A stretch of DNA of 64,000 bases from Phormidesmis priestleyi Ana (GTDB lineage Bacteria > Cyanobacteriota > Cyanobacteriia > Phormidesmidales > Phormidesmidaceae), in assembly GCA_001314865.1 (NCBI GenBank), contig LJZR01000012.1, positions 92,223-156,222 of the forward strand. The letters run 5' to 3'. The notes under the pieces were generated by a model, which saw only the letters and a program-made list of their open reading frames with translations, was not told the DNA's origin and searched no databases. Below are positions 1 through 13,077 of this stretch, piece by piece. The stretch's first letter is position 1; the number at the start of each line of letters is the position of its first letter. Both the position numbers and the translations under genes were made by a program.

Positions 1-2
1 TT

Positions 3-107
3 TGGGCAGAAAGCGAGTTAGGTCAGGGAAGCCGCTTTTATTTTACAGTGCCACTTAGGGGAGATTTAGAGCGGGGGAATTTAGAACCTAACGTTAGTTC
101 AGTTTGA
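3..107 (+). CDS. C-terminal fragment (34 aa) of a sensor histidine kinase truncated by the window edge; RcaE-like by context
   Basis: Frame 3 reads WAESELGQGSRFYFTVPLRGDLERGNLEPNVSSV*, resembling the end of a HATPase_c domain (G2 box 'S.LGQGS.F.FTVPL'). Confidence 0.7.
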   Translation, partial: WAESELGQGSRFYFTVPLRGDLERGNLEPNVSSV

Positions 108-220
108 ATCTGGTTGAATCTGGCTCACGCTTGGCTTCACCCTGGAGTTCCTCAGTTCGTTCTGTACCGGTTAATTTTGTATCGGTTAATTTTGTATCAG
201 CTTCATGCCGCAGACAACCT

Positions 221-601
221 ATGCCAGCCAAAAGTGTTTTGATTATCGACGATGAAGTCTCTATCCAAAAAGTAGTGAGCCTCAGCCTCAAAATGGAGGC
301 CAACTGGTCTGTAATTACCGCATCCTCTGGCAAGGAGGGTATTCTTCAGGCAGAACACCATCTCCCGGATGTGATTTTGCTAGATGTCATGATGCCTGAG
401 CTAGACGGCATCGCTACTTTTGAAGCACTGCGAGATAATCCGGTCACGCACTCTATTCCGGTGATACTCCTCACAGCCAAAACGCGCGCCGATGACAAGC
501 AGCTATTTCAAAAATTGGGGGTAGCCGGTGTTATTACCAAGCCCTTTCCACCGCTGACCCTCGCCAGCAAAATTGCTCAAATGGTCAACTGGTCGCTCTA
601 A
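221..601 (+). CDS. rcaF: Single-domain CheY-like response regulator, RcaF-like by context
   Basis: MPAKSVLIIDDEVSIQKVV...DVILLDVMMPELDG...PVILLTAK...ITKPF; receiver with DD/D/T/K residues. ORF starts at 104 but ATG 221 fits domain start. Confidence 0.8.
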   Translation: MPAKSVLIIDDEVSIQKVVSLSLKMEANWSVITASSGKEGILQAEHHLPDVILLDVMMPELDGIATFEALRDNPVTHSIPVILLTAKTRADDKQLFQKLGVAGVITKPFPPLTLASKIAQMVNWSL

Positions 602-641
602 ACATATATACACATATCCACACATATATACATACACACAC
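602..641. other. Alternating purine-pyrimidine tract between rcaF-like and rcaC-like genes
   Basis: acatatatacacatatc / cacacatatatacatacacacac, one break in alternation at 618/619. Confidence 0.6.
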
Positions 642-732
642 CCTCCAACCCGCCAACTCGCCAACCCATCACTCAAAGCACTTATAGCCCTCAAAGCCCT
701 CAAAACACTTAATAGACCCACGAGATAAAGCC

Positions 733-2676
733 ATGAGAGTATTACTCGTAGATGATGACAATGCCCTCAGCAAATTGCTCAGTCAGCACCTGAGTGAGCA
801 AAACTACGTAGTGGATCGAGTGACCGATGGCGAAACAGGCTGGGCCTATGCGGCAACCTTTGAATATGACTTGGTCATTTTGGACTGGGTACTGCCTCAG
901 CTAAATGGCATTCGATTGTGTCAACGGTTGCGGCAGCAGGGATACGAGATGCCCGTATTGTTGCTTACGACTAAAGACCAACAAACCGACAAAATTCAGG
1001 GGCTAGAAGCGGGCGCCGATGACTATGTTGTTAAGCCTTTTGACATGGCAGAACTCTTGGTGCGAATTCGGGTCCTTTTGCGGCGATCGCACGCCGAAAC
1101 CGAATCGGCCTTACATTGGGGCGACCTATGTTTAGATCCGGTGAGCTGTCAGGTCACTTATCAGCGGCAGCCGGTTTCTCTAACAGCCAAAGAATATGCC
1201 ATGTTGGAGCTGTTTTTGCACCATAGTCATCAAACCTTTAGCGCCACCACTCTCCTAGACCGAGTTTGGCCTTCTGAAGAATTTCCCAGTGAGGCTACAG
1301 TGCGATCGCATATTCGCGGACTACGCCAAAAGCTCAAACGCGCTGGCGCGTCGGCTGATTTGATCGAAACCGTCCATGGATTGGGCTATCGACTTAAAGC
1401 GCCCCCAATTGACCATGCACAGTCGGGTAAGCAGGTTGATCGCGATCGCGAAGCACATTATTTAGCAGGTCTCACCCAAGCTTGGCAGGCCCACAAAGGA
1501 GAAAGCCTAGAGCGGTGGAATAGCCTGGTACAGCTCGCTCATTCCCTCACCGCGAACGAAGGCGAAGCATTCCTATCTCCCCCCAATTCAGTCGGCACTC
1601 GCAGCCTCAGCGAGCAACAGCAAACCCAAGCTCGGCAAATTGCCCACACCCTAGCCGGTACATTAGGCACCTTTGGCCTCATGGAAGGCTATCGCTTAGC
1701 CCTGCAAATAGAAACCCTATTACTCCATGCCGACACCACCTTATCACCCTCTCAAATCACCCAACTTCATACGCTAGTGACTACATTAGGCCATGCCCTA
1801 GATGAGTCTCCTAAGCTGGTTTGCCCGATCGAAAATGCGCCTGAAACCCCCTCTCTTTTGATCGTAGATGTCAACGATATGCCCTACATTCAGCAGCTAA
1901 TCGCACTAGCCGTCGCCAAGGGGTTAGATCCTACCGTTGTCGCTTCGATTGAAGCAGCCGCGCAAACACTCTCACTGGGCTCTCCAATCGATACCACCAC
2001 AGAGCTACTCGCCCAGCCGCCAGAACTGGTACTCATTAACCTCGTCGCAAGCGAAACCAACTCAATACTAGACGAACCCATTTTACAAAGACTGTTGCAG
2101 TTTATTGGGCAAATTACCCAGCGCTGGCCGCAATTGCCCGTAGTGGTCATTACGCCGCAGGCCGACTTTGGCAATCGGTTGGACTTAGTCCGGCGAGGGA
2201 GCACCATCATTTTGGAGTATCCGGTTGTGCCCGCAGATGTGTTGGATCTCATTGGCCAATCGACCCATCTCAATCACCGCCTGAGCAAAATTATGATTGT
2301 TGACGATGATGCTCACTATTTGAAGCAGGTGATTCAACTGTTACATCCTTGGAATTTTCAAATTACGCCGCTGACAAGTCCCCAGCGGTTTTGGTCACTG
2401 TTTAATCAAGTATGTCCTGACTTGGTCATTTTAGATGTAGAAATGCCACATATTAGCGGCTTTGAGCTGTGTCAGGTACTTCGCAGCCATGTGCAGTGGC
2501 AACACTTGCCCATTGTGTTTATGAGCGTGCATAGCGATCGCGACATGCAAGATCGTGCGTTTGCCCTCGGCGCAGATGACTACATCATCAAACCGATTCA
2601 GGGAAAGTCTTTAGCCTATCGGCTGCTCAATCGATTGAAGCGATCATCAAACCAAATCAAAAGCCCAATCAGCTAA
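733..2676 (+). CDS. rcaC: Multidomain response regulator REC-OmpR wHTH-HPt-pseudoREC-REC, RcaC-like
   Basis: MRVLLVDDDNALSKLL...; Trans_reg_C 'SLTAKEYAMLELFLHHSHQTFS...VRSHIRGLRQKL'; HPt 'QIAHTLAGTLGTFGL'; C-terminal receiver 'KIMIVDDD...LVILDVEMP...DDYIIKP'. Confidence 0.88.
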   Translation: MRVLLVDDDNALSKLLSQHLSEQNYVVDRVTDGETGWAYAATFEYDLVILDWVLPQLNGIRLCQRLRQQGYEMPVLLLTTKDQQTDKIQGLEAGADDYVVKPFDMAELLVRIRVLLRRSHAETESALHWGDLCLDPVSCQVTYQRQPVSLTAKEYAMLELFLHHSHQTFSATTLLDRVWPSEEFPSEATVRSHIRGLRQKLKRAGASADLIETVHGLGYRLKAPPIDHAQSGKQVDRDREAHYLAGLTQAWQAHKGESLERWNSLVQLAHSLTANEGEAFLSPPNSVGTRSLSEQQQTQARQIAHTLAGTLGTFGLMEGYRLALQIETLLLHADTTLSPSQITQLHTLVTTLGHALDESPKLVCPIENAPETPSLLIVDVNDMPYIQQLIALAVAKGLDPTVVASIEAAAQTLSLGSPIDTTTELLAQPPELVLINLVASETNSILDEPILQRLLQFIGQITQRWPQLPVVVITPQADFGNRLDLVRRGSTIILEYPVVPADVLDLIGQSTHLNHRLSKIMIVDDDAHYLKQVIQLLHPWNFQITPLTSPQRFWSLFNQVCPDLVILDVEMPHISGFELCQVLRSHVQWQHLPIVFMSVHSDRDMQDRAFALGADDYIIKPIQGKSLAYRLLNRLKRSSNQIKSPIS

Positions 2677-2763
2677 CTACCCTCCAAGCCAACTGAAGGT
2701 ATCAAAATAAGGTATCCAAAAAAATAAGGCATCCCAAAAGGTATCAAAAACATTACAACCTCC

Positions 2764-2781
2764 CTGCACGTTATTTGCACA
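2764..2781 (+). promoter_or_regulatory. L-box-like RcaC site upstream of pcyA: CTGCACG-TTAT-TTGCACA
   Basis: Direct repeat with exact 4-bp spacer; second half-site perfect, first half-site 5/7 to TTGCACA; 40-49 bp upstream of the pcyA start. Confidence 0.72.
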
Positions 2782-2820
2782 AGCAATGGGCCAAGGTAAA
2801 CCCAGAATTGCTTTCTTTAG

Positions 2821-3642
2821 GTGCCCCCCATGATTCAAACGCGCCCCCACACCCAACAGATTCAACAGCAACATCCCCTCATCAATCGCTTGGCTGAGTT
2901 GATCAAAAGCATCTGGCAAAGCCAGTTAATGCTCTTCCCCTACGAAACACCCAAAGAGCTAGGCTACATCGAAGGCAACCTAGAAGGGGAACAGCTCACC
3001 ATCAAAAATACCTGCTACCAAACCTTTCAATTTCGTAAGCTCCATTTAGAACTGGCAAAAGTTGGCAGCCATCTGGATATTTTGCACTGTGTGATGTTTC
3101 CACACCCCTGCTACGATTTGCCCATTTTTGGGGTCGATATTGTCGCGGCTCGCGGCATCATTACAGCGGCCATTGTCGATCTATCGCCCATTTTAGAGAC
3201 CAGCGAAACCGTCTCTACAGGAAACAAAGCCTTTCCGGCAGGCTACGCCGAGGCACTAGGTAAAGTACCCGCCCATCACTTCACCCATCCTCGCGACCTA
3301 CCAGCCTGGGGCAATATCTTCTCAGAGCATTGTTTATTTATCAGCCCCAAAAGCCCCGAAGAAGAAAGGGCTTTTCTCAACCAAGCGACCCAGTATTTGT
3401 CACTGCACTGTGAGTTAGCGCGTGAGGCTAGCCCGGTCGATACACTCGAAAAAAGAGCGCAAATTTTGGCCGGACAGCGAAACTATTGTTTACAGCAACA
3501 GAAAAATGACAAAACCAGACGTATCTTAGAGCGTGCTTTTGACCCCGAATGGGCACAGCGATACCTGCAAACGATGCTATTTGACACCGTTCCAGAAATC
3601 ACCACAGAAACTATCCTCACGACCTCAACCCAGCGACTGTAA
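2821..3642 (+). CDS. pcyA: Phycocyanobilin:ferredoxin oxidoreductase PcyA
   Basis: ELGYIEGNLEGEQLTIKNTCYQTFQFRKLHLELAKVGSHLDILHCVMFPHPCYDLPIFGVDIVAARGIITAAIVDLSP; typical ferredoxin-dependent bilin reductase. Alternative start 2830. Confidence 0.93.
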   Translation: MPPMIQTRPHTQQIQQQHPLINRLAELIKSIWQSQLMLFPYETPKELGYIEGNLEGEQLTIKNTCYQTFQFRKLHLELAKVGSHLDILHCVMFPHPCYDLPIFGVDIVAARGIITAAIVDLSPILETSETVSTGNKAFPAGYAEALGKVPAHHFTHPRDLPAWGNIFSEHCLFISPKSPEEERAFLNQATQYLSLHCELAREASPVDTLEKRAQILAGQRNYCLQQQKNDKTRRILERAFDPEWAQRYLQTMLFDTVPEITTETILTTSTQRL

Positions 3643-3743
3643 CGCAATGCGAAGTTTCTTGAAGCCTGGTAAAGGCTATATTTAATGTTTCAAACGCTTT
3701 ACTGAGAAGGCTTCAGCGATTGTAACTAGTTATACACAATGCT

Positions 3744-3761
3744 GTGCACAAAATCTGCACA
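3744..3761 (+). promoter_or_regulatory. L-box-like RcaC site upstream of the first cpcBA operon: GTGCACA-AAAT-CTGCACA
   Basis: Two 6/7 half-sites of TTGCACA with exact 4-bp spacer, about 360 bp upstream of cpcB. Confidence 0.7.
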
Positions 3762-4119
3762 AGCAAATTGATTAAATGACTTTACTGGTTCGAAACACCT
3801 AAGGCCTGAGCGTTTGAGCCGTTAGGATTTTTGTTCTTTCAAAACCCACAGGTAAAGAGAAGTGGCCCTCGCGCTTCGCCAAAGGCAATAGATTTTTGTT
3901 GTTTTTGACGACAGGGTGTTTGTACTTTACCGACTGCTGGGGCAAGTGATGTTCTGCTTTGTTCGGTTGTTGGCTGTTATGGGGCATGGCCTCCTAATCG
4001 CCAGAAGCCTCGAATCATTCAGCACGTTTTAGAACATGCTCGCAACAAAAAACAACTGTTCGAGCCAGGATTTAAAGACAGTTTATTTGTGAGTTCAAAA
4101 CTTAGGAGATTAGGTTCAC

Positions 4120-4638
4120 ATGTTTGATGCTTTTACAAAAGTGGTTTCTCAAGCCGATGCACGGGGCGAGTATATTGGCGACGACAAAATTAATGCCCTC
4201 AATCAGCTAGTGGCTGATGGCAATAAGCGGATTGACGCTGTCAACCGGATTACGAGTAATTCTTCTAGCATTGTTGCCAACGCAGCGCGCTCTTTGTTCG
4301 CTGACCAGCCTCAGCTCATTTCGCCTGGTGGCAATGCTTACACCAGCCGTCGGATGGCCGCTTGCTTGCGTGATATGGAAATCATTTTGCGCTATGTTAC
4401 CTACGCTGTTTTTGCAGGCGACGGTAGCGTCTTGGATGACCGATGCTTGAACGGCTTGCGCGAAACCTACACAGCCCTCGGTGTACCGGGTGCTTCTGTA
4501 GCAGCAGGCGTTGGCAAGATGAAAGAAGCTGCGATCGCAATCGCGAACGACCGCGCAGGGATTACCCAAGGTGACTGTAGCTCTCTAATCGCCGAGCTAG
4601 GCGCTTACTTTGACCGGGCAGCTTCTGCAGTTAGCTAA
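4120..4638 (+). CDS. cpcB: C-phycocyanin beta subunit, first copy (Cpc2-like operon)
   Basis: 172 aa; [19 protein letters not shown]...[30 protein letters not shown]...[22 protein letters not shown]. Confidence 0.97.
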
Positions 4639-4699
4639 GCCCCATCCAAATTCTTTTTCCTTCAAGTACATCCTTAAAACATAAGAGAGATCTTCCACA

Positions 4700-5188
4700 A
4701 TGAAAACCCCCATGACTGAAGCGGTTGCAGCCGCTGATTCCCAAGGCCGTTTCCTCAGCAGCTCTGAGCTACAAGTTGCCTTTGGTCGTTTCCGTCAGGC
4801 GCAAGCTGGCCTAGCTGCCGCTCAATCGTTGGCTAAAAATGCAAGCTCACTGGTTGATGGCGCAGCTCAAGCTGTTTATACCAAGTTCCCCTACACCACT
4901 CAAATGCAGGGCAGCAACTACGCTTCAACATCCGAAGGTAAAGCTAAGTGTGCCCGTGACATTGGCTACTATCTCCGCATGGTGACCTATTGCCTCATCG
5001 CTGGCGGTACTGGCCCCATGGATGAGTATTTGATCTCAGGGATTAGTGAAATCAACAGCACCTTTGACCTGTCGCCTAGCTGGTATGTAGAAGCGCTAAA
5101 GCATATCAAAGCGAACCATGGCCTCAGTGGAGACGCGGCCTCTGAAGCTAATTCCTACATTGACTATGCCATCAACACATTGAGCTAG
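4700..5188 (+). CDS. cpcA: C-phycocyanin alpha subunit, first copy
   Basis: 162 aa; [31 protein letters not shown]...[27 protein letters not shown]. Confidence 0.97.
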
Positions 5189-5197
5189 CACAATCAG

Positions 5198-5242
5198 AAT
5201 CTGCCTGACGCTTAAAGGGTTAGCTTAGGCGTCAGGCAGATT
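5198..5242 (+). terminator. Intercistronic hairpin between cpcA and downstream linker (attenuator/processing type)
   Basis: aatctgcctgacgc (5198-5211) / gcgtcaggcagatt (5229-5242): perfect 14-bp inverted repeat. Confidence 0.8.
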
Positions 5243-5322
5243 TCACTGGTTTTGTTCGAATGCCTGTTTCTTTGCTTTTTGATCGATTATTTAATCAATG
5301 CTCCCGCTTCGAGGATTCCAAG

Positions 5323-6138
5323 ATGACGAGTAAAACTTCAGCAAGACTTTTAGGATTTGAATCGGCCCAGCTAGCACCTATTGAGCTACGTCCCCATGCT
5401 TCTGAGGACGATATCCAAGGGGTGATTTGGGCCGCTTATCGTCAGGTTTTTGGCAATGATCATGTGATGAACGCAGAGCGTCTCACCAGTAGTGAATCTT
5501 TGTTGAAACAGGGCTCCCTTCGGGTTTGTGATTTTGTCCGTGCCTTGGCGCTCTCGGAGCTATATAAAGAAAAGTTTTTTTATAGCACCTCTCATGTGCG
5601 CTTTATTGAACTCAATTTCAAGCATTTATTGGGCCGAGCACCCTACGATGAAGCTGAGATTTCTGAGCATGTGAATCTCTACATTCAACAGGGCTATGAG
5701 GCTGAAATTGGTAGTTACTTTGACTCGTTAGAATATCAGGAAAACTTTGGTGAGCATGTGGTGCCCTACTACCGGGGCTTTGCCACCCAACGCAACCAAA
5801 AAACGGTAGGGTTTGGCCGCATGTTTCAGCTGTATCGGGGAGCGGCGAGCAGCGATCGCGCCCATGTCAATCATCGCAAAGGTCTCCTCACGACAGAACT
5901 CGCCCGCAATACAGCCAGTCCAGTCAGAGCCTCAACCATGGGCAAAGAGCTCCAAGGCATCACGGGTGGCCAGCGCGAACAGCTATATCGCATTCGCGTT
6001 TCACAATCGGCCAATGGGCGATCGCCACAAGTTCGTCGGGGTATGCAGGAATATGTGGTCACTTACGAACAGTTAACCCCCACTTTGCAGCGGCTGAATC
6101 GTCGAGGTAGCCGTATTGTCAATATTACATCGGCTTAA
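5323..6138 (+). CDS. cpcC: Phycobilisome rod linker polypeptide (CpcC/CpcH type)
   Basis: PBS linker domain: [34 protein letters not shown]...[18 protein letters not shown] plus C-terminal CpcD domain. ORF opens at 5260; ATG 5323 is likely. Confidence 0.92.
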
Positions 6139-6229
6139 ATAAACCGCGATTCCCACAGCCGTTTGGCACTCACTTTTGCTGCGGCTGATTTTTTTGGTTT
6201 TTTGGTTTTTTATTTAGGAGAATAATTCT

Positions 6230-7105
6230 GTGGCTATTACGACTGGGTCTGCACGCTTAGGCACCCGCCCTTTTAGCGAACAAGCTATCGAAATGCGGCC
6301 AAACGCCGCTGATGATGAAATCCAAGGAATCATCTCGGCGACCTACAGACAGGTGCTCGGCAACGACTACTTAATGAAATCAGAGCGACTAATCGCGCTG
6401 GAGTCTTTGCTCACGAACAAGGCTTTGACCGTTAGAGACTTTGTGCGAGCCATGGCTAAGTCGGAACTGTACAAAACCAAGTTTTTGTACCCCCATTTTC
6501 AAACACGAGTGATTGAGCTTAATTTCAAGCATTTGTTAGGCCGTGCGCCCTACGATGAAGCCGAAGTAGTTGAGCATCTAGATCGCTATCAAAACCAAGG
6601 CTTTGATGCAGATATTGATTCCTACATTGACTCGCTAGAATACGAGACTTATTTTGGCGATAACATCGTGCCCTACTACCGAGGCTTTAGCACTCAAACC
6701 GGGCAAAAGATGGCAGGCTTTCCACGAATGTTTAGCCTTTATCGGGGCTATGCCAATAGCGATCGCGCTCAAATCGCCGGGAGTTCTTCTCGCTTAGCCA
6801 AAGAGCTTGCCCAAGGCACTGTTTCTGCGGTCGTACCGCCTTCTAGCGCTGACAACAGCAACGGTTGGGCTTATCAGCCAGCGGCGAAGGGAGCTACCAC
6901 TACCCGTCGAGTGTTTGGCAGACAAACTGCTACGAGCGATCGCGGTAGCCTCTACCGCATTGAGGTCACAGGCAGACGGTTGCCTGGCTACCCCAGCATC
7001 CGCCGGAGCAATCGGGTATTGGTCGTGCCCTACGAGAGTCTCTCTCAAACATTGCAGCAAATCAACCAATCTGGAGGACGAGTAGCCAGCATTACGTCTG
7101 CGTAG
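6230..7105 (+). CDS. cpcC: Phycobilisome rod linker polypeptide (CpcC/CpcI type)
   Basis: GTG start; [55 protein letters not shown]-terminal CpcD-like domain. Confidence 0.93.
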
Positions 7106-7145
7106 CCTGCATCCATAGGCCCAGCCGCTTCTCCATTCCAAACTC

Positions 7146-7184
7146 TCTATTCACCCTTTCTATTCACCCTTTCTATTCACCCTG
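7146..7184. repeat. 13-bp tandem repeat x3 (tctattcacccttt-type) just upstream of cpcD
   Basis: tctattcaccctt/tctattcaccctt/tctattcaccctg. Confidence 0.9.
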
Positions 7185-7195
7185 AGGTGTCAAGC

Positions 7196-7483
7196 ATGTT
7201 AGGACAATGTTCCATTGGTGGAGCCTCCGAATTAAACAGTCGTATCTTCGTTTATGAAGTCGCTGGCTTAAGTCAAAACGAAGTAACAACGCTTTCCCAA
7301 GCCCCTATTCGCGCCAGTCACAACCAGTTTTTCCAGGTGCCTTTTGCCCGGATGAATCAGGAGATGCAGCGCATTTTGTTGATGGGCGGAAAGATTGTAA
7401 ATATTCAGCCCCTAAGCGTACAAAACCAGAACGCACAGAATCAGAGCGAACAAAACGCCGAAGCGACAGACTCTGAGGATTAA
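7196..7483 (+). CDS. cpcD: Phycobilisome rod-capping linker CpcD
   Basis: MLGQCSIGGASELNSRIFVYEVAGLSQNEVTT...QVPFARMNQEMQRILLMGGKIVNIQPL; CpcD domain. Confidence 0.9.
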   Translation: MLGQCSIGGASELNSRIFVYEVAGLSQNEVTTLSQAPIRASHNQFFQVPFARMNQEMQRILLMGGKIVNIQPLSVQNQNAQNQSEQNAEATDSED

Positions 7484-7670
7484 TCAGACTCTGAGGATTA
7501 ATCAGAAAGAAGAGATGTCCAGTTAAACGACGCTCAAAGTCAAAAAACTGAAATCAAAACAAACTGAAATCAAAACAAACTGAAATAAGTTAAAACCCTT
7601 ATTCAGAAACCCAATGGTTGCTTGCATCTCCGCTTGATCAAGTGTCGCGCGATATCCACCGATCGGCCCA

Positions 7671-7713
7671 CTGTTGCTTCTAGGCATAACACCAAATCCC
7701 TAAGAAGCAACAG
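7671..7713 (+). promoter_or_regulatory. Inverted repeat in leader of the second cpcB
   Basis: ctgttgcttct (7671-7681) / agaagcaacag (7703-7713): 11-bp perfect arms, no T-run. Confidence 0.6.
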
Positions 7714-7749
7714 CTAACCGATTTTCCCCATTCCTAGGAGATTGATTCA

Positions 7750-8268
7750 ATGTTAGATGTCTTTACCAAGGTTGTTGCCCAATCTGATAAGCAGGGTCAG
7801 TTGGTTAGTAATAGTCAAATTGATGCTTTATTAGCCACAGTTAAAGAGGGTGCAAGGCGCACAGATGTGGTTAACCGCATTAGCAGCAATTCTTCTGCCA
7901 TTGTCACGAATGCAGCTCGGGCCTTGTTTGCCGAACAGCCTCAGCTCATCGCACCTGGCGGCAATGCCTACACCAATCGTCGGGTATCTGCTTGCCTGCG
8001 CGATATGGACATCATTTTGCGCTATGTTACCTATGCCATATTTTTGGGTGATGCCAGCGTGCTGGACGATCGCTGCTTAAATGGCCTACGCGAGACATAT
8101 ACAGCTTTAGGTGTACCGAGTGCTTCTATGGCCAACAGCATTACAAAAATGAAAGAAGCCGCGATCGCCCTTGCCAATGATCGCACCGGAATCACTCAGG
8201 GTGATTGCAGCTCCTTAATCGCTGAACTGTCGAGCTACTTTGATCGGGCTGCTGCCGCTGTCAGCTAA
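7750..8268 (+). CDS. cpcB: C-phycocyanin beta subunit, second copy
   Basis: 172 aa; [28 protein letters not shown]...[22 protein letters not shown]. Confidence 0.97.
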
Positions 8269-8410
8269 TCGCTGCCGACCCATAACCGACCCATAGCCGA
8301 CCTACTGCCCGACCCATAACCGACTGAATGACGGCTGTCAGTAACGGTTATGAACAAGTTCAAAAACATCCAAAAAACATTTCGAGAAACACTAGGGAGA
8401 TAGTATCTCA

Positions 8411-8899
8411 ATGAAAACGCAATTAACTGAAGCGGTTGTCGCAGCTGATTCTCAAGGCCGTTACCTGGGCAATACCGAACTACAAGTTGCCTTTGGTCGC
8501 CTGCGCTTAGCAGCAGCTGACTTAGAAGCAGCAAAGGTACTAGGCGCAAAAGCCGATCAGCTAGCAAGTGGCGCGGCAAATGCGGTTTATCAAAAGTATC
8601 CTTACACCACCCAAATGCAGGGCAACAACTATGCTTCAGATGAGCGTGGCAAAGCCAAGTGCCTGCGCGATATTGGCTATTATGTGCGCATGGTTCAGTA
8701 CTGTTTGATTGCGGGCGGCACTGGGCCTGCCGATGAGTTTTTGTTGGCCGGTTTGTCAGAAATGCACAGCAGCTTTGAGCTAGTGCCTGGCTGGTATGCA
8801 GAAGCGCTCAAGTACATCAAAGCAAACCATGGTTTGTCGGGTGACCCTGCGCTTGAGGCGAATTCCTACCTCGACTACATTATCAACGCACTGAGCTAG
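8411..8899 (+). CDS. cpcA: C-phycocyanin alpha subunit, second copy
   Basis: 162 aa; [42 protein letters not shown]... Confidence 0.97.
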
Positions 8900-8912
8900 T
8901 GCTACGACTAGG

Positions 8913-8955
8913 CGAATAAGGGTTGCGGCGAATTTAAAAACCGCTCCCTTATTCG
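8913..8955 (+). terminator. Intercistronic hairpin after second cpcA
   Basis: cgaataaggg (8913-8922) / cccttattcg (8946-8955), inner pair gcgg (8925-8928)/ccgc (8941-8944). Confidence 0.75.
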
Positions 8956-9000
8956 TCTGGGTAGATTAATTTGAATCAGCAAGCACTTTAATTTTTTTAA

Positions 9001-9096
9001 CTTAGACACTTTTGATTTAGACACTTTTAACTTAGACACTTTTGACTTAGACACTTTTGACTTAGACACTTTTGACTTAGACACTTTTGACTTAGA
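9001..9096. repeat. 15-bp tandem repeat, 6 full copies plus partial (cttagacacttttga) between cpcA and linker gene
   Basis: Four identical units at 9031-9090, near-identical units at 9001-9030. Confidence 0.97.
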
Positions 9097-9118
9097 TAGT
9101 TGCGTTGGGAGACACATC

Positions 9119-9943
9119 ATGGCTGGACTACAAGAGGCGAGCAGGTTTGGGATTCGGCCATTTGAGGAGGCAGAACCTGTTGAGCTGCGGCCCAATTGGA
9201 CTCAAGACGATGTCCAGTCTGTGATTTTGGCGGCCTACCGACAGGTGCTTGGCAATGAGTACCTCATGAAGACTGATCGGCTCGTGACCCAGGAATCGCT
9301 TTTAGTACAGGGCGTTATCACGGTTAGAGACTTCATTCGCGCGATCGCACTTTCAGACCTCTATCGCCAAAAGTTCTTATATCCCAACTTCCATGTGCGC
9401 TTTATAGAACTCAACTTTAAGCACCTCTTGGGCCGCGCACCCTACGATCAAAGCGAGATTTCTTACCATTTAGATCTCTTTATCTCCCAAGGCTACGAGG
9501 TTGAGATTGAGTCCTATCTCAGCTCAGATGAGTATGATGCGAGCTTTGGCGACAATACCGTTCCCACCTATCGAGATTTCCAAGTCGATCACCCAGGTCA
9601 ACGTGCTGTTGGCTTTAGCCGATTGTTGCAGCTGTATCGTGGCTATGCAAACAGCGATCGCGCCCAAGGGCAAAAGCAGCCTCGGCTCACTTGGGAAGTT
9701 GCCCGCAACTTAGCGACACCAATAGCATCGGCTTCTCCGGGTTCTATTGCAGGCTCTTTGGGCGGCCCAAGAGGCGATGTTTACCGGCTGCGGATTGTGG
9801 GATCAGCAGCCAATAGACGAACCAACAGCGCCGTTGTTCGCCAAGCCACCACTGAACTCTTGGTTCCCTATGACCAGCTCACAACAAAGCTAAAGCAACT
9901 GAGTCGTGCGGGCAGTCGGGTCGTGAGTGTAACGGCTGTCTGA
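9119..9943 (+). CDS. cpcC: Phycobilisome rod linker polypeptide
   Basis: MAGLQEASRFGIRPFEEAEPVELRPNWTQDDVQSVILAAYRQVLGNEYLMKTDRL; linker plus CpcD-like domain. Confidence 0.92.
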   Translation: MAGLQEASRFGIRPFEEAEPVELRPNWTQDDVQSVILAAYRQVLGNEYLMKTDRLVTQESLLVQGVITVRDFIRAIALSDLYRQKFLYPNFHVRFIELNFKHLLGRAPYDQSEISYHLDLFISQGYEVEIESYLSSDEYDASFGDNTVPTYRDFQVDHPGQRAVGFSRLLQLYRGYANSDRAQGQKQPRLTWEVARNLATPIASASPGSIAGSLGGPRGDVYRLRIVGSAANRRTNSAVVRQATTELLVPYDQLTTKLKQLSRAGSRVVSVTAV

Positions 9944-9986
9944 GGTGCGAAATTCATTCCAAAACTATTGATAAGGAGATTTTCAG

Positions 9987-10850
9987 GTGGCTATTACAAC
10001 AGCAGCCTCTCGACTCGGAACCTCGGCTTTTAGTGATGCTGCACCGGTCGAACTACGTCCCAAGGCCAGCCCAGGAGAAATTGAAGCCGTTATCCTAGCG
10101 GTGTATAAGCAGGTACTGGGCAATCCTCATCTGCTCAAGTCTGAACGATTGGTGATTGCAGAGTCTTTGCTACGCGATCGCAAAATCACCGTTCAAGCAT
10201 TTGTCCGTCAAGTCGCCAAGTCAGAACTCTATAAGCAGAAGTTTTTTAACAGCTGCTTTCAAAGCCGCACCATTGAGCTTAACTATAAGCATCTTCTAGG
10301 ACGCGCCCCTTACGACCAATCAGAGATTACAGAACACCTGAATCTGTATGAATCCGAGGGGTTTGAGGCCGATATTGACTCCTACATTGACTCGCCTGAG
10401 TATCAGGCCAACTTTGGTGAAAATATCGTTCCGTACTATTTAGATTTGGTCACCACCGGAATAGGACAGCGCTCGGTAGGGTTTCCGCGTTTGTTACAGC
10501 TGTATCGAGGCTATGCGAGCAGCGATCGCGCCCAACTCATTGGGAAAGCCCCTCGGTTGGTCAAAGATCTCGCTCGTAATACCGCTTCTGCCATATTGCC
10601 GACTTCAAGCAGTGGGTTTGCCTATCAGGGCGCAGCCAAAGGCGATGCTTCTTACAGTGCCTTTGGCGGATCAAAAGCACTGGGCTCTGGGCGTCTCTTC
10701 CGGGTAGAAGTCGCAGCCATCAGCAAGCCAGGCTATCCAAAAGTACGACGCGTCAATAAAGCCGTCATCATCCCCTTTGAAGAATTAACACCTCATATGC
10801 AAAGGGTACAGCGTCAAGGCGGAAAAATTGCCAGCATTACGCCACTCTAA
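9987..10850 (+). CDS. cpcC: Phycobilisome rod linker polypeptide
   Basis: GTG start; [46 protein letters not shown]; linker plus CpcD-like domain. Confidence 0.92.
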
Positions 10851-10935
10851 GGTTTAAAGATCGTTAGATCAAAACATCGTCAAAATTGCAGTTCTATCAG
10901 GTTCCAATGTTGTTAGGTTTAGGGTTTGTGCAAAC

Positions 10936-11688
10936 GTGAGTATTCCTTTATTAGCTTATTCTCCCTCTTGTCCCAATCAGCGTGTAGCCGCGCTAGGCGC
11001 TCGCGACGATGAAACGATCATTTATTCAGCAGATGATCAGTTCTCCCCAACAGATATAGACAATCTGATTAACGCAGCCTATCGACAGATCTTCTTTCAT
11101 GCCTTTAAGTGGGATCGCGAAAGGGTTCTCGAATCTCAGCTGCGCATCCGGCAAATTACAGTACGTGACTTTATTCGCGGACTGTTACTTTCAAATACCT
11201 TTATCGATAGCTTTTACCATAAAAATAGCAACTATCGATTTGTTGAGCACTGCGTTGAAAAAGTGCTAGGGCGTCGCGTTTATAACGAGCGAGAAAAAAT
11301 TGCTTGGTCTGCGCTGGTCATGACCAAAGGTGTCAAGGCATTTGTTGATGCCTTACTCAACAGCGACGAATACATCGAAAACTTCGGAGAGAACACCGTT
11401 CCCTTCCACCGTAGACGAACCCTGCCTAGCCGCGAATTGGGCGAAATTCCGTTCAACATCACCTCACCCCGTTACGATGCCTATCATCGAGACCAGCTGG
11501 GCTTTCCCCAATTTATTTGGAAGGAAGTGGTTCGCGGATTTCGTCCCTACGATCAGCAGCCAAAAAATGGCGATCCCACCTTGTTTACCGATATGGCAAA
11601 AAGTATCCGCCCGGCAGGTTCAACCCCATCCCTCACCGATCTCGACAAGCTCGACTTTAAAAAAGCCGTTCCCTATCGTCGCCGCTAA
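10936..11688 (+). CDS. cpcG: Phycobilisome rod-core linker CpcG (no hydrophobic CpcL-type tail)
   Basis: GTG start; [20 protein letters not shown]...[42 protein letters not shown]...NTVPFHRRR; hydrophilic C-terminus. Confidence 0.93.
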
Positions 11689-11786
11689 GCAGCTAGCAGG
11701 GTTAGCAGTGAGTGACAAGTAGTGACACAAGATTGTTGCGATGCGATCGCTGTTTGCGTAATGCAGCTGCATCGCGACATTAGCGA

Positions 11787-11840
11787 AACAGCACAGTAGT
11801 AAAGCTCCGGAAGAGCCCTTTGCTACTGTGCTGTTTTCTT
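11787..11840 (+). terminator. Rho-independent-like terminator after cpcG
   Basis: aacagcacagtag (11787-11799) / ctactgtgctgtt (11823-11835) followed by ttctt. Confidence 0.75.
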
Positions 11841-11860
11841 CGTGTTATGTTCTCACTTAT

Positions 11861-12472
11861 TTAGTCAGCCGTCAGACGGTATGTCCCGCGATCGCCCTTA
11901 TACCAGTCACCGCTGCGAACACCGCCTGAAAGAACATTCGAAATTCGGTTCCGAGCCTTCAAATGCTGAGACTTTGGCATACTCTCACTAAAGAGCGCAT
12001 CCATGACCTCTGCGATTTTAAAAGACTTATCAGGCTGAGTTTCTAAAACCAAACGAACCGCATCCGGAATAGACTGTTCCCCAACACCGGGGCGCGTGTA
12101 CTTTTGCCAGCTAGCTGCACGACCATCCTTCTTCTTAGTAGAGGCCTTAGCAGCAGGTTTGGCCTTAAGAACAGTCGCTTTTGTTTTCTTCTCGGCCACA
12201 GGCGCAGCTTTCTTTTCGACCACAGGCGCAGCTTTCTTCTCGGCCTTCGGGGCTTTTTTGCTAGCCGTTTTGCTAGCCGTCGTTTTCTCTTTAGCGGGTG
12301 CTTTCACTGGCAAAACTTCTGCTGCATCCGCAGATTCGCCAAATAGTGGTAAAATTGCCCGCACGCCTTGAAGTTTTTCCTGCACTTCAGCGAGCTGAGC
12401 TATTAAGGATTTTTCCTGCGCAAGCAAATCTTCAGATATTTCTTGCAGTTGGGGTAATACTGTTTGTGCCAT
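11861..12472 (-). CDS. Uncharacterised protein: coiled-coil N-term, Lys/Ala/Pro-rich histone-H1-like middle, winged-helix-like C-term
   Basis: MAQTVLPQLQEISEDLLAQEKSLIAQLAEVQEKLQG...KAPAKEKTTASKTASKKAPKAEKKAAPVVEKKAAPVAEKK...PDAVRLVLETQPDKSFKIAEVMDALFSE...LSGGVRSGDWYKGDRGTYRLT; ORF extends to 12511. Confidence 0.75.
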   Translation of the reverse strand: MAQTVLPQLQEISEDLLAQEKSLIAQLAEVQEKLQGVRAILPLFGESADAAEVLPVKAPAKEKTTASKTASKKAPKAEKKAAPVVEKKAAPVAEKKTKATVLKAKPAAKASTKKKDGRAASWQKYTRPGVGEQSIPDAVRLVLETQPDKSFKIAEVMDALFSESMPKSQHLKARNRISNVLSGGVRSGDWYKGDRGTYRLTAD

Positions 12473-12618
12473 ATATTCTTTAAAACAATCAAAAAAATTC
12501 ACTGACGACAATACTAGCGTAAATGGTACTCAAATACTCTAGTATTGAGAAACTCTTGAAAACTATTCTTGAGAAATAAGAGTCCTTGATAGAAAAGTAT
12601 TTGTAACAGAGTATTTTT

Positions 12619-12684
12619 CACAGAGTGTTCGCAGAGTGTTCACAGAGTGTTCGCAGAGTGTTCACAGAGTGTTCGCAGAGTAAT
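12619..12684. repeat. 11-bp tandem repeat x6 with alternating ca/cg start (cacagagtgtt/cgcagagtgtt)
   Basis: Direct reading of 12619-12684; last copy degenerate. Confidence 0.95.
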
Positions 12685-13077
12685 AGAGATTAGCACCATC
12701 CATACCATTTACCCGTATCTTCTAACCTCATATTTGCATACAACATTCTGAATTCAACATCCTTTCATATCATTAAACGCCCTGTTCATAGCTATTTCAG
12801 CGTTCCAACAGGATACATTCTCTATAGCTAAGCATCAGCCATGCGTCAGCTAAGCATCAACCAAATGTCGAACATTTGCCGAACATTTTTCGAACAAATA
12901 TCCAACATTTTCAGCCAAATGCTCTAGATGTTTTTGCCATCAAAAGAACTTTTTGCGCACAAAAAAATATGCTTTTTCTGACACTTTCACACTTTCACAT
13001 CAGTGAAACAACATCAGTGAAACGGTAATTGCGATCCACACATACGACAAAAGTGCTTGAAATTCTTCCACAATTGT

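Follow-up and report, generated by a model that had tools for sequence, protein, structure and literature searches.

A predicted RcaC operator (L box) before a cpc2-type phycocyanin operon in Phormidesmis priestleyi Ana, a cyanobacterium in which no phycoerythrin pathway was found

What is the value of a green/red light sensor to a cell without a green-absorbing antenna? This question is made testable by a locus of Phormidesmis priestleyi Ana, which was analysed here as a window of 64,000 nucleotides from contig LJZR01000012.1. The organism appears to have lost phycoerythrin, the normal counterweight to phycocyanin in the RcaE/RcaC pathway, and its retention of a control site of this pathway is unusual. 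In our reading of the sequence, positions 3744-3761 are in all likelihood the RcaC operator of a red-light-activated cpcBAHID promoter and, with neither phycoerythrin nor the PEB pathway found, the pathway would adjust phycocyanin alone.

A preliminary description of this DNA had reported an L-box-like GTGCACA-AAAT-CTGCACA at this place on the forward strand, and this has been confirmed. The 18-mer GTGCACAAAATCTGCACA is formed by two direct TTGCACA-like half-sites with N4 spacing, has 2 mismatches to TTGCACA-N4-TTGCACA (14 positions) and starts 376 bp ahead of the first cpcB ATG at 4120. The consensus alone proves little, because sequences within 3 mismatches of it occur no more often in the window (11 observed) than in its shuffles (9.0 +/- 3.1). 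The genome scan for the consensus, which had been proposed as a check, was run and turned out to be uninformative by itself, with dozens of 2-mismatch matches across the genome (G000). Both counts would suit a repeat that is a functionless chance near-match, but this explanation is extremely improbable, as it is already contradicted by conservation. Among the loci examined, where an L box was sought within 700 bp of cpcB, all 25 rca-type cpcBAHID operons of related genomes carry it upstream of cpcB in the same orientation and position, with a TTNAAT-like -10 element (TTAAAT, TTTAAT or a close variant) placed exactly 10 nt behind it. No such box precedes any of the 13 cpcBAEF copies or any of the 11 cpcB genes from genomes that lack an rca cluster (Fisher p about 1e-14 for the distribution across cpc operon types, kinship among the genomes being ignored). 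Moreover, a weight matrix built from the relatives only ranks the site first among the ~128,000 positions of the window and a site before pcyA (2764-2781) second; of 5.1 million simulated positions, none reaches the score of the former and one reaches that of the latter. The departures from TTGCACA are conserved within the clade of the window as [GAT]TGCACA-N4-CTGCACA and, being common to it, represent a lineage form and not decay. On the evidence of this comparison with relatives, the L box at 3744-3761 is a genuine control site.

The pcyA gene is also preceded by an L box in most relatives with the cluster, and in RcaC genomes the element is thus seen before both the cpc2-type operons (25/25) and most of the cluster pcyA copies. 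The earlier suggestion that the site belongs to the first cpcBA operon only holds with regard to the second cpcB but missed the site before pcyA. No third L box with the -10 spacing was present among the wider candidate sites of the genome. Inverted L boxes were found before pebAB in G001 and, in G032, before linker genes which were taken as phycoerythrin linkers, in agreement with the inverted L box published for pebAB of PCC 7335 (PMC8256508). In G141 (L210:8350-9910), pcyA is followed by cpeBA-like genes that have an L box in direct orientation, whereas those described for green-light genes are inverted. An L box in G032 (L047:1189) precedes a stand-alone linker pair related to the linkers behind the second cpcBA of the window, and the 10-nt spacing to a -10 element is not obvious there.

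The features of the region are collected in the table below. The genes follow the order rcaE-rcaF-rcaC-pcyA-cpcBAHID-cpcBA-linkers-cpcG, and the full frame of rcaE lies at L009:5982-8330. The GAF domain of RcaE matches the solved RcaE structure 7ckv with 210 bits, and the residues taken as the bilin Cys and as Glu, Leu and Lys of the protochromic site are aligned between the two. In RcaC, Asp51, the HPt His and the Asp of the C-terminal REC domain are all present. The first operon had been described as the inducible cpc2 type, and this is well supported by rcaE, rcaF, rcaC and pcyA lying just upstream and by the site in all 25 rca-type operons; to judge from this arrangement, it is very probably controlled by RcaC.

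Table. Predicted features of the rca-cpc region (positions in the window)
Feature	Position	Strand	Remarks
rcaE, 3' end	1..107	+	782 aa kinase, CBS-GAF-PAS-histidine kinase; remainder upstream of the window
rcaF-like single-domain response regulator	221..601	+	ORF open from 104
rcaC	733..2676	+	REC - OmpR/PhoB DNA-binding domain - HPt - REC, 647 aa (Pfam)
Second L box, CTGCACG-TTAT-TTGCACA	2764..2781	+	upstream of pcyA, where most relatives have it too; ranked second by the matrix
Possible pcyA -10, CAAGGT	2792..2797	+	10 nt past the L box; GGCAAGGTNA conserved in several relatives
pcyA (phycocyanobilin:ferredoxin oxidoreductase), L-box copy	2830..3642	+	
Upstream element around ATTGTAACTAGTTATACACAA	3719..3741	+	conserved; GTA-N8-TAC here, GTA-N10-TAC in several relatives
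L box (predicted RcaC site, cpcBAHID promoter)	3744..3761	+	GTGCACA-AAAT-CTGCACA; matrix rank 1, conservation
Predicted -10, TTAAAT	3772..3777	+	exactly 10 nt past the L box; TT[AT]AAT conserved at this spacing
cpcB-cpcA-cpcH-cpcI-cpcD (cpc2-type) operon	4120..7483	+	
cpcD-cpcB (second copy) spacer	7484..7749	.	L box absent; neither promoter nor T-tailed terminator predicted on the + strand; strong RNA fold (z -5.1)
Second cpcBA, two rod linkers and CpcG-type linker	7750..11688	+	CpcB 73% identical to the first; G004 ortholog has its own L box

The -10 element of the first operon is without the usual A at position 2, which counts against the promoter model; at the same spacing, TTAACT and TTCAAT occur as minor variants in the relatives. 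Transcription would be expected to start at about 3784, with a leader of about 336 nt. The GTA-N8-TAC at 3722-3735, just 5' of the L box, is an NtcA-type palindrome, which may tie the promoter to nitrogen status or may be due to chance. An Rfam scan of positions 1-13000 returned no known RNA. The fixed spacing of 10 nt between L box and -10 element offers a precise promoter model for RcaC target searches.

From this layout a course of regulation can be proposed. RcaE, a cyanobacteriochrome kinase of the green/red type, would respond to red light by passing phosphate via RcaF to RcaC, and phosphorylated RcaC would bind both direct half-sites head-to-tail. The L box ends 10 nt before the -10 element, so bound RcaC would replace the -35 contact and recruit RNA polymerase, as PhoB does at pho boxes. 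The pho promoters have the same 10-nt spacing to the -10 element. The second L box would drive pcyA, and the additional phycocyanin and its bilin would therefore rise together in red light.

The position of the second cpcBA operon in this scheme is less simple. Its cpcB sits 266 bp downstream of cpcD and, as had been stated in the preliminary description, no comparable paired site precedes it, the best score within 7484-7749 ranking only 261st with the relatives-only matrix. The operon had been regarded as constitutive on this ground; our results do not support that assignment. A constitutive-type (cpc1-type) cpcBAEF is present as a third copy elsewhere in the genome (G000:C68), and the second cpcBA of the window is followed by linkers instead of cpcE and cpcF. 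In its closest relative, the stand-alone ortholog of the second cpcB in G004 (C320), GCGCACA-AAAT-CTGCACA, 10 nt and TTAAAT lie ahead of the gene. That the second cpcBA is a constitutive set with its own promoter in the spacer is therefore unlikely: the missing L box would agree with it, and the strong RNA structure of the spacer could end upstream transcripts, but no sigma-70-like site was predicted on its forward strand. As no T-tailed terminator was called on that strand either, transcripts begun at the L-box promoter may run on across the gap. The simplest reading is that the second cpcBA formerly had its own L-box promoter and now, placed behind the first operon, would rely on read-through. 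The spacer contains a long stem-loop at 7662-7722, and a 15-bp tandem repeat (TTTTGACTTAGACAC-like) is present at 8980-9114, between the second cpcA and the next linker gene. A sulphur-sparing (cpc3-like) role of the second cpcBA was considered and rejected, the Met and Cys counts of its CpcB and CpcA not being reduced.

A type III response (CA3) combines phycoerythrin genes with inverse regulation of phycoerythrin and phycocyanin, and here the genome departs from it. CpeB, PebA and PebB were all absent from the assembly (136 contigs, 98.8% complete). All matches to the PBP family could be assigned, to three CpcBA pairs, APC-type proteins, an ApcE-like protein and one orphan CpeA-like protein, and the only bilin reductases are two PcyA. 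The orphan is a phycoerythrin-alpha-like protein of 196 aa (G000:C68:397085-397564; L143:9083-9670, reverse strand) with only one bilin-type Cys, whose gene adjoins a CpcT-like gene. Phycoerythrin and pebAB are found in some sister genomes (G001, G002, G005), which, together with the number of contigs, raises the possibility that the genes were lost in assembly gaps and that the acclimation is of the ordinary kind. This is quite improbable, as it requires each of cpeBA, pebA and pebB to have been missed; moreover, the pebA-pebB-cpcBAEF region of the sisters is contained in one contig here, without pebAB, and P. priestleyi has been published as free of phycoerythrin by genomes and spectra (PMC8941735). 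With no phycoerythrin beta subunit and no PEB-making enzymes, the pathway would adjust phycocyanin alone, and we read the setting as phycocyanin-only type III acclimation.

It may also be asked whether the box is real and the pathway a relic, phycoerythrin having been lost and the cluster drifting without a colour response. A survey of 391 genomes bears on this. A search of genome contigs with RcaC had named some relatives (Phormidesmis, Leptolyngbya and Heron Island J), along with many unrelated regulators; since orthologs and paralogs of RcaC beyond the family are not distinguishable by identity alone, the survey was based on RcaE. This kinase was detected in 58 genomes, 41 of them with PebA and CpeB, 1 with PebA only and 16 with neither. 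These 16 contrast with the published inseparability of RcaE and phycoerythrin: in a survey of 65 genomes, all 27 with RcaE were able to make PEB and RcaE was linked to phycoerythrin (PMC9415938), and a metagenome study considered RcaE without phycoerythrin as possibly due to incomplete genomes (PMC8941735). Two of the members are weak, namely G006, in which a fragment of PebB lies at the edge of a contig, and G004, with 7% contamination and broken reductase fragments; G195, on the other hand, is a single-contig assembly. At least 8 of the 16 retain the L box before a cpc operon (G000, G049, G057, G144, G185, G188, G239 and G267), and none was found in the regions examined of G195, G223, G226 and G237.

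The relic remains a real rival for the Ana genome because the rca cluster is decaying stepwise in G003 (L041, rcaE reduced to a remnant) and G031 (L044, rcaE not found nearby), in both of which no PEB enzymes or CpeB were detected; pcyA is broken or gone in these genomes, yet the cpc L-box promoter is intact. The absence of CpeB and PebAB agrees with it as well, and the persistence of the orphan phycoerythrin-alpha-like gene means that the pathway may be a remnant of recent date. We nevertheless hold the relic to be unlikely: the genes of the Ana cluster and both of its promoters are all intact, and the RcaE genomes without phycoerythrin, about a quarter of the total, are spread over several families, with the L-box cpc operon kept as counted above. 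A phycocyanin-only output in vivo is the preferred reading. A wider proposal, somewhat more doubtful than probable, is that this constitutes a distinct and recurring type of acclimation, in which, among cyanobacteria that lack phycoerythrin, RcaE-RcaF-RcaC and L boxes would tune only phycocyanin and its bilin, the inducible antenna being enlarged by fusion of a once-separate L-box cpcBA-linker operon behind the first.

The locus has much in common with CA3 as known from Fremyella diplosiphon and Synechococcus sp. PCC 7335, namely the sensor, relay and regulator RcaE-RcaF-RcaC, the L boxes in direct orientation ahead of cpc2 and of pcyA, and the cpcBAHID operon. Unlike CA3, only the phycocyanin branch remains, no phycoerythrin or PEB pathway having been found; the genes lie in one cluster, the half-sites are of the clade-specific forms [GAT]TGCACA and CTGCACA, and RcaE bears an N-terminal CBS region. 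Regulators of the OmpR/PhoB class read 18-nt direct repeats of 7-4-7 form, for example the pho boxes (PMC4415409). The L box is likewise an 18-nt 7-4-7 direct repeat close upstream of the -10 element, whereas the half-site sequence and the signal differ from those of the pho box. In case of CcaS/CcaR (CA1, CA2 and CA7), a green/red cyanobacteriochrome also governs antenna genes by means of an OmpR-class regulator; here, in contrast, the kinase matches RcaE, the RcaC-like regulator contains an HPt and two REC domains, and the site is an L box and not a G box. Neither the L box nor its pathway is new as such; the setting in a genome without phycoerythrin would be, and it is this phycocyanin-only setting which is worth following.
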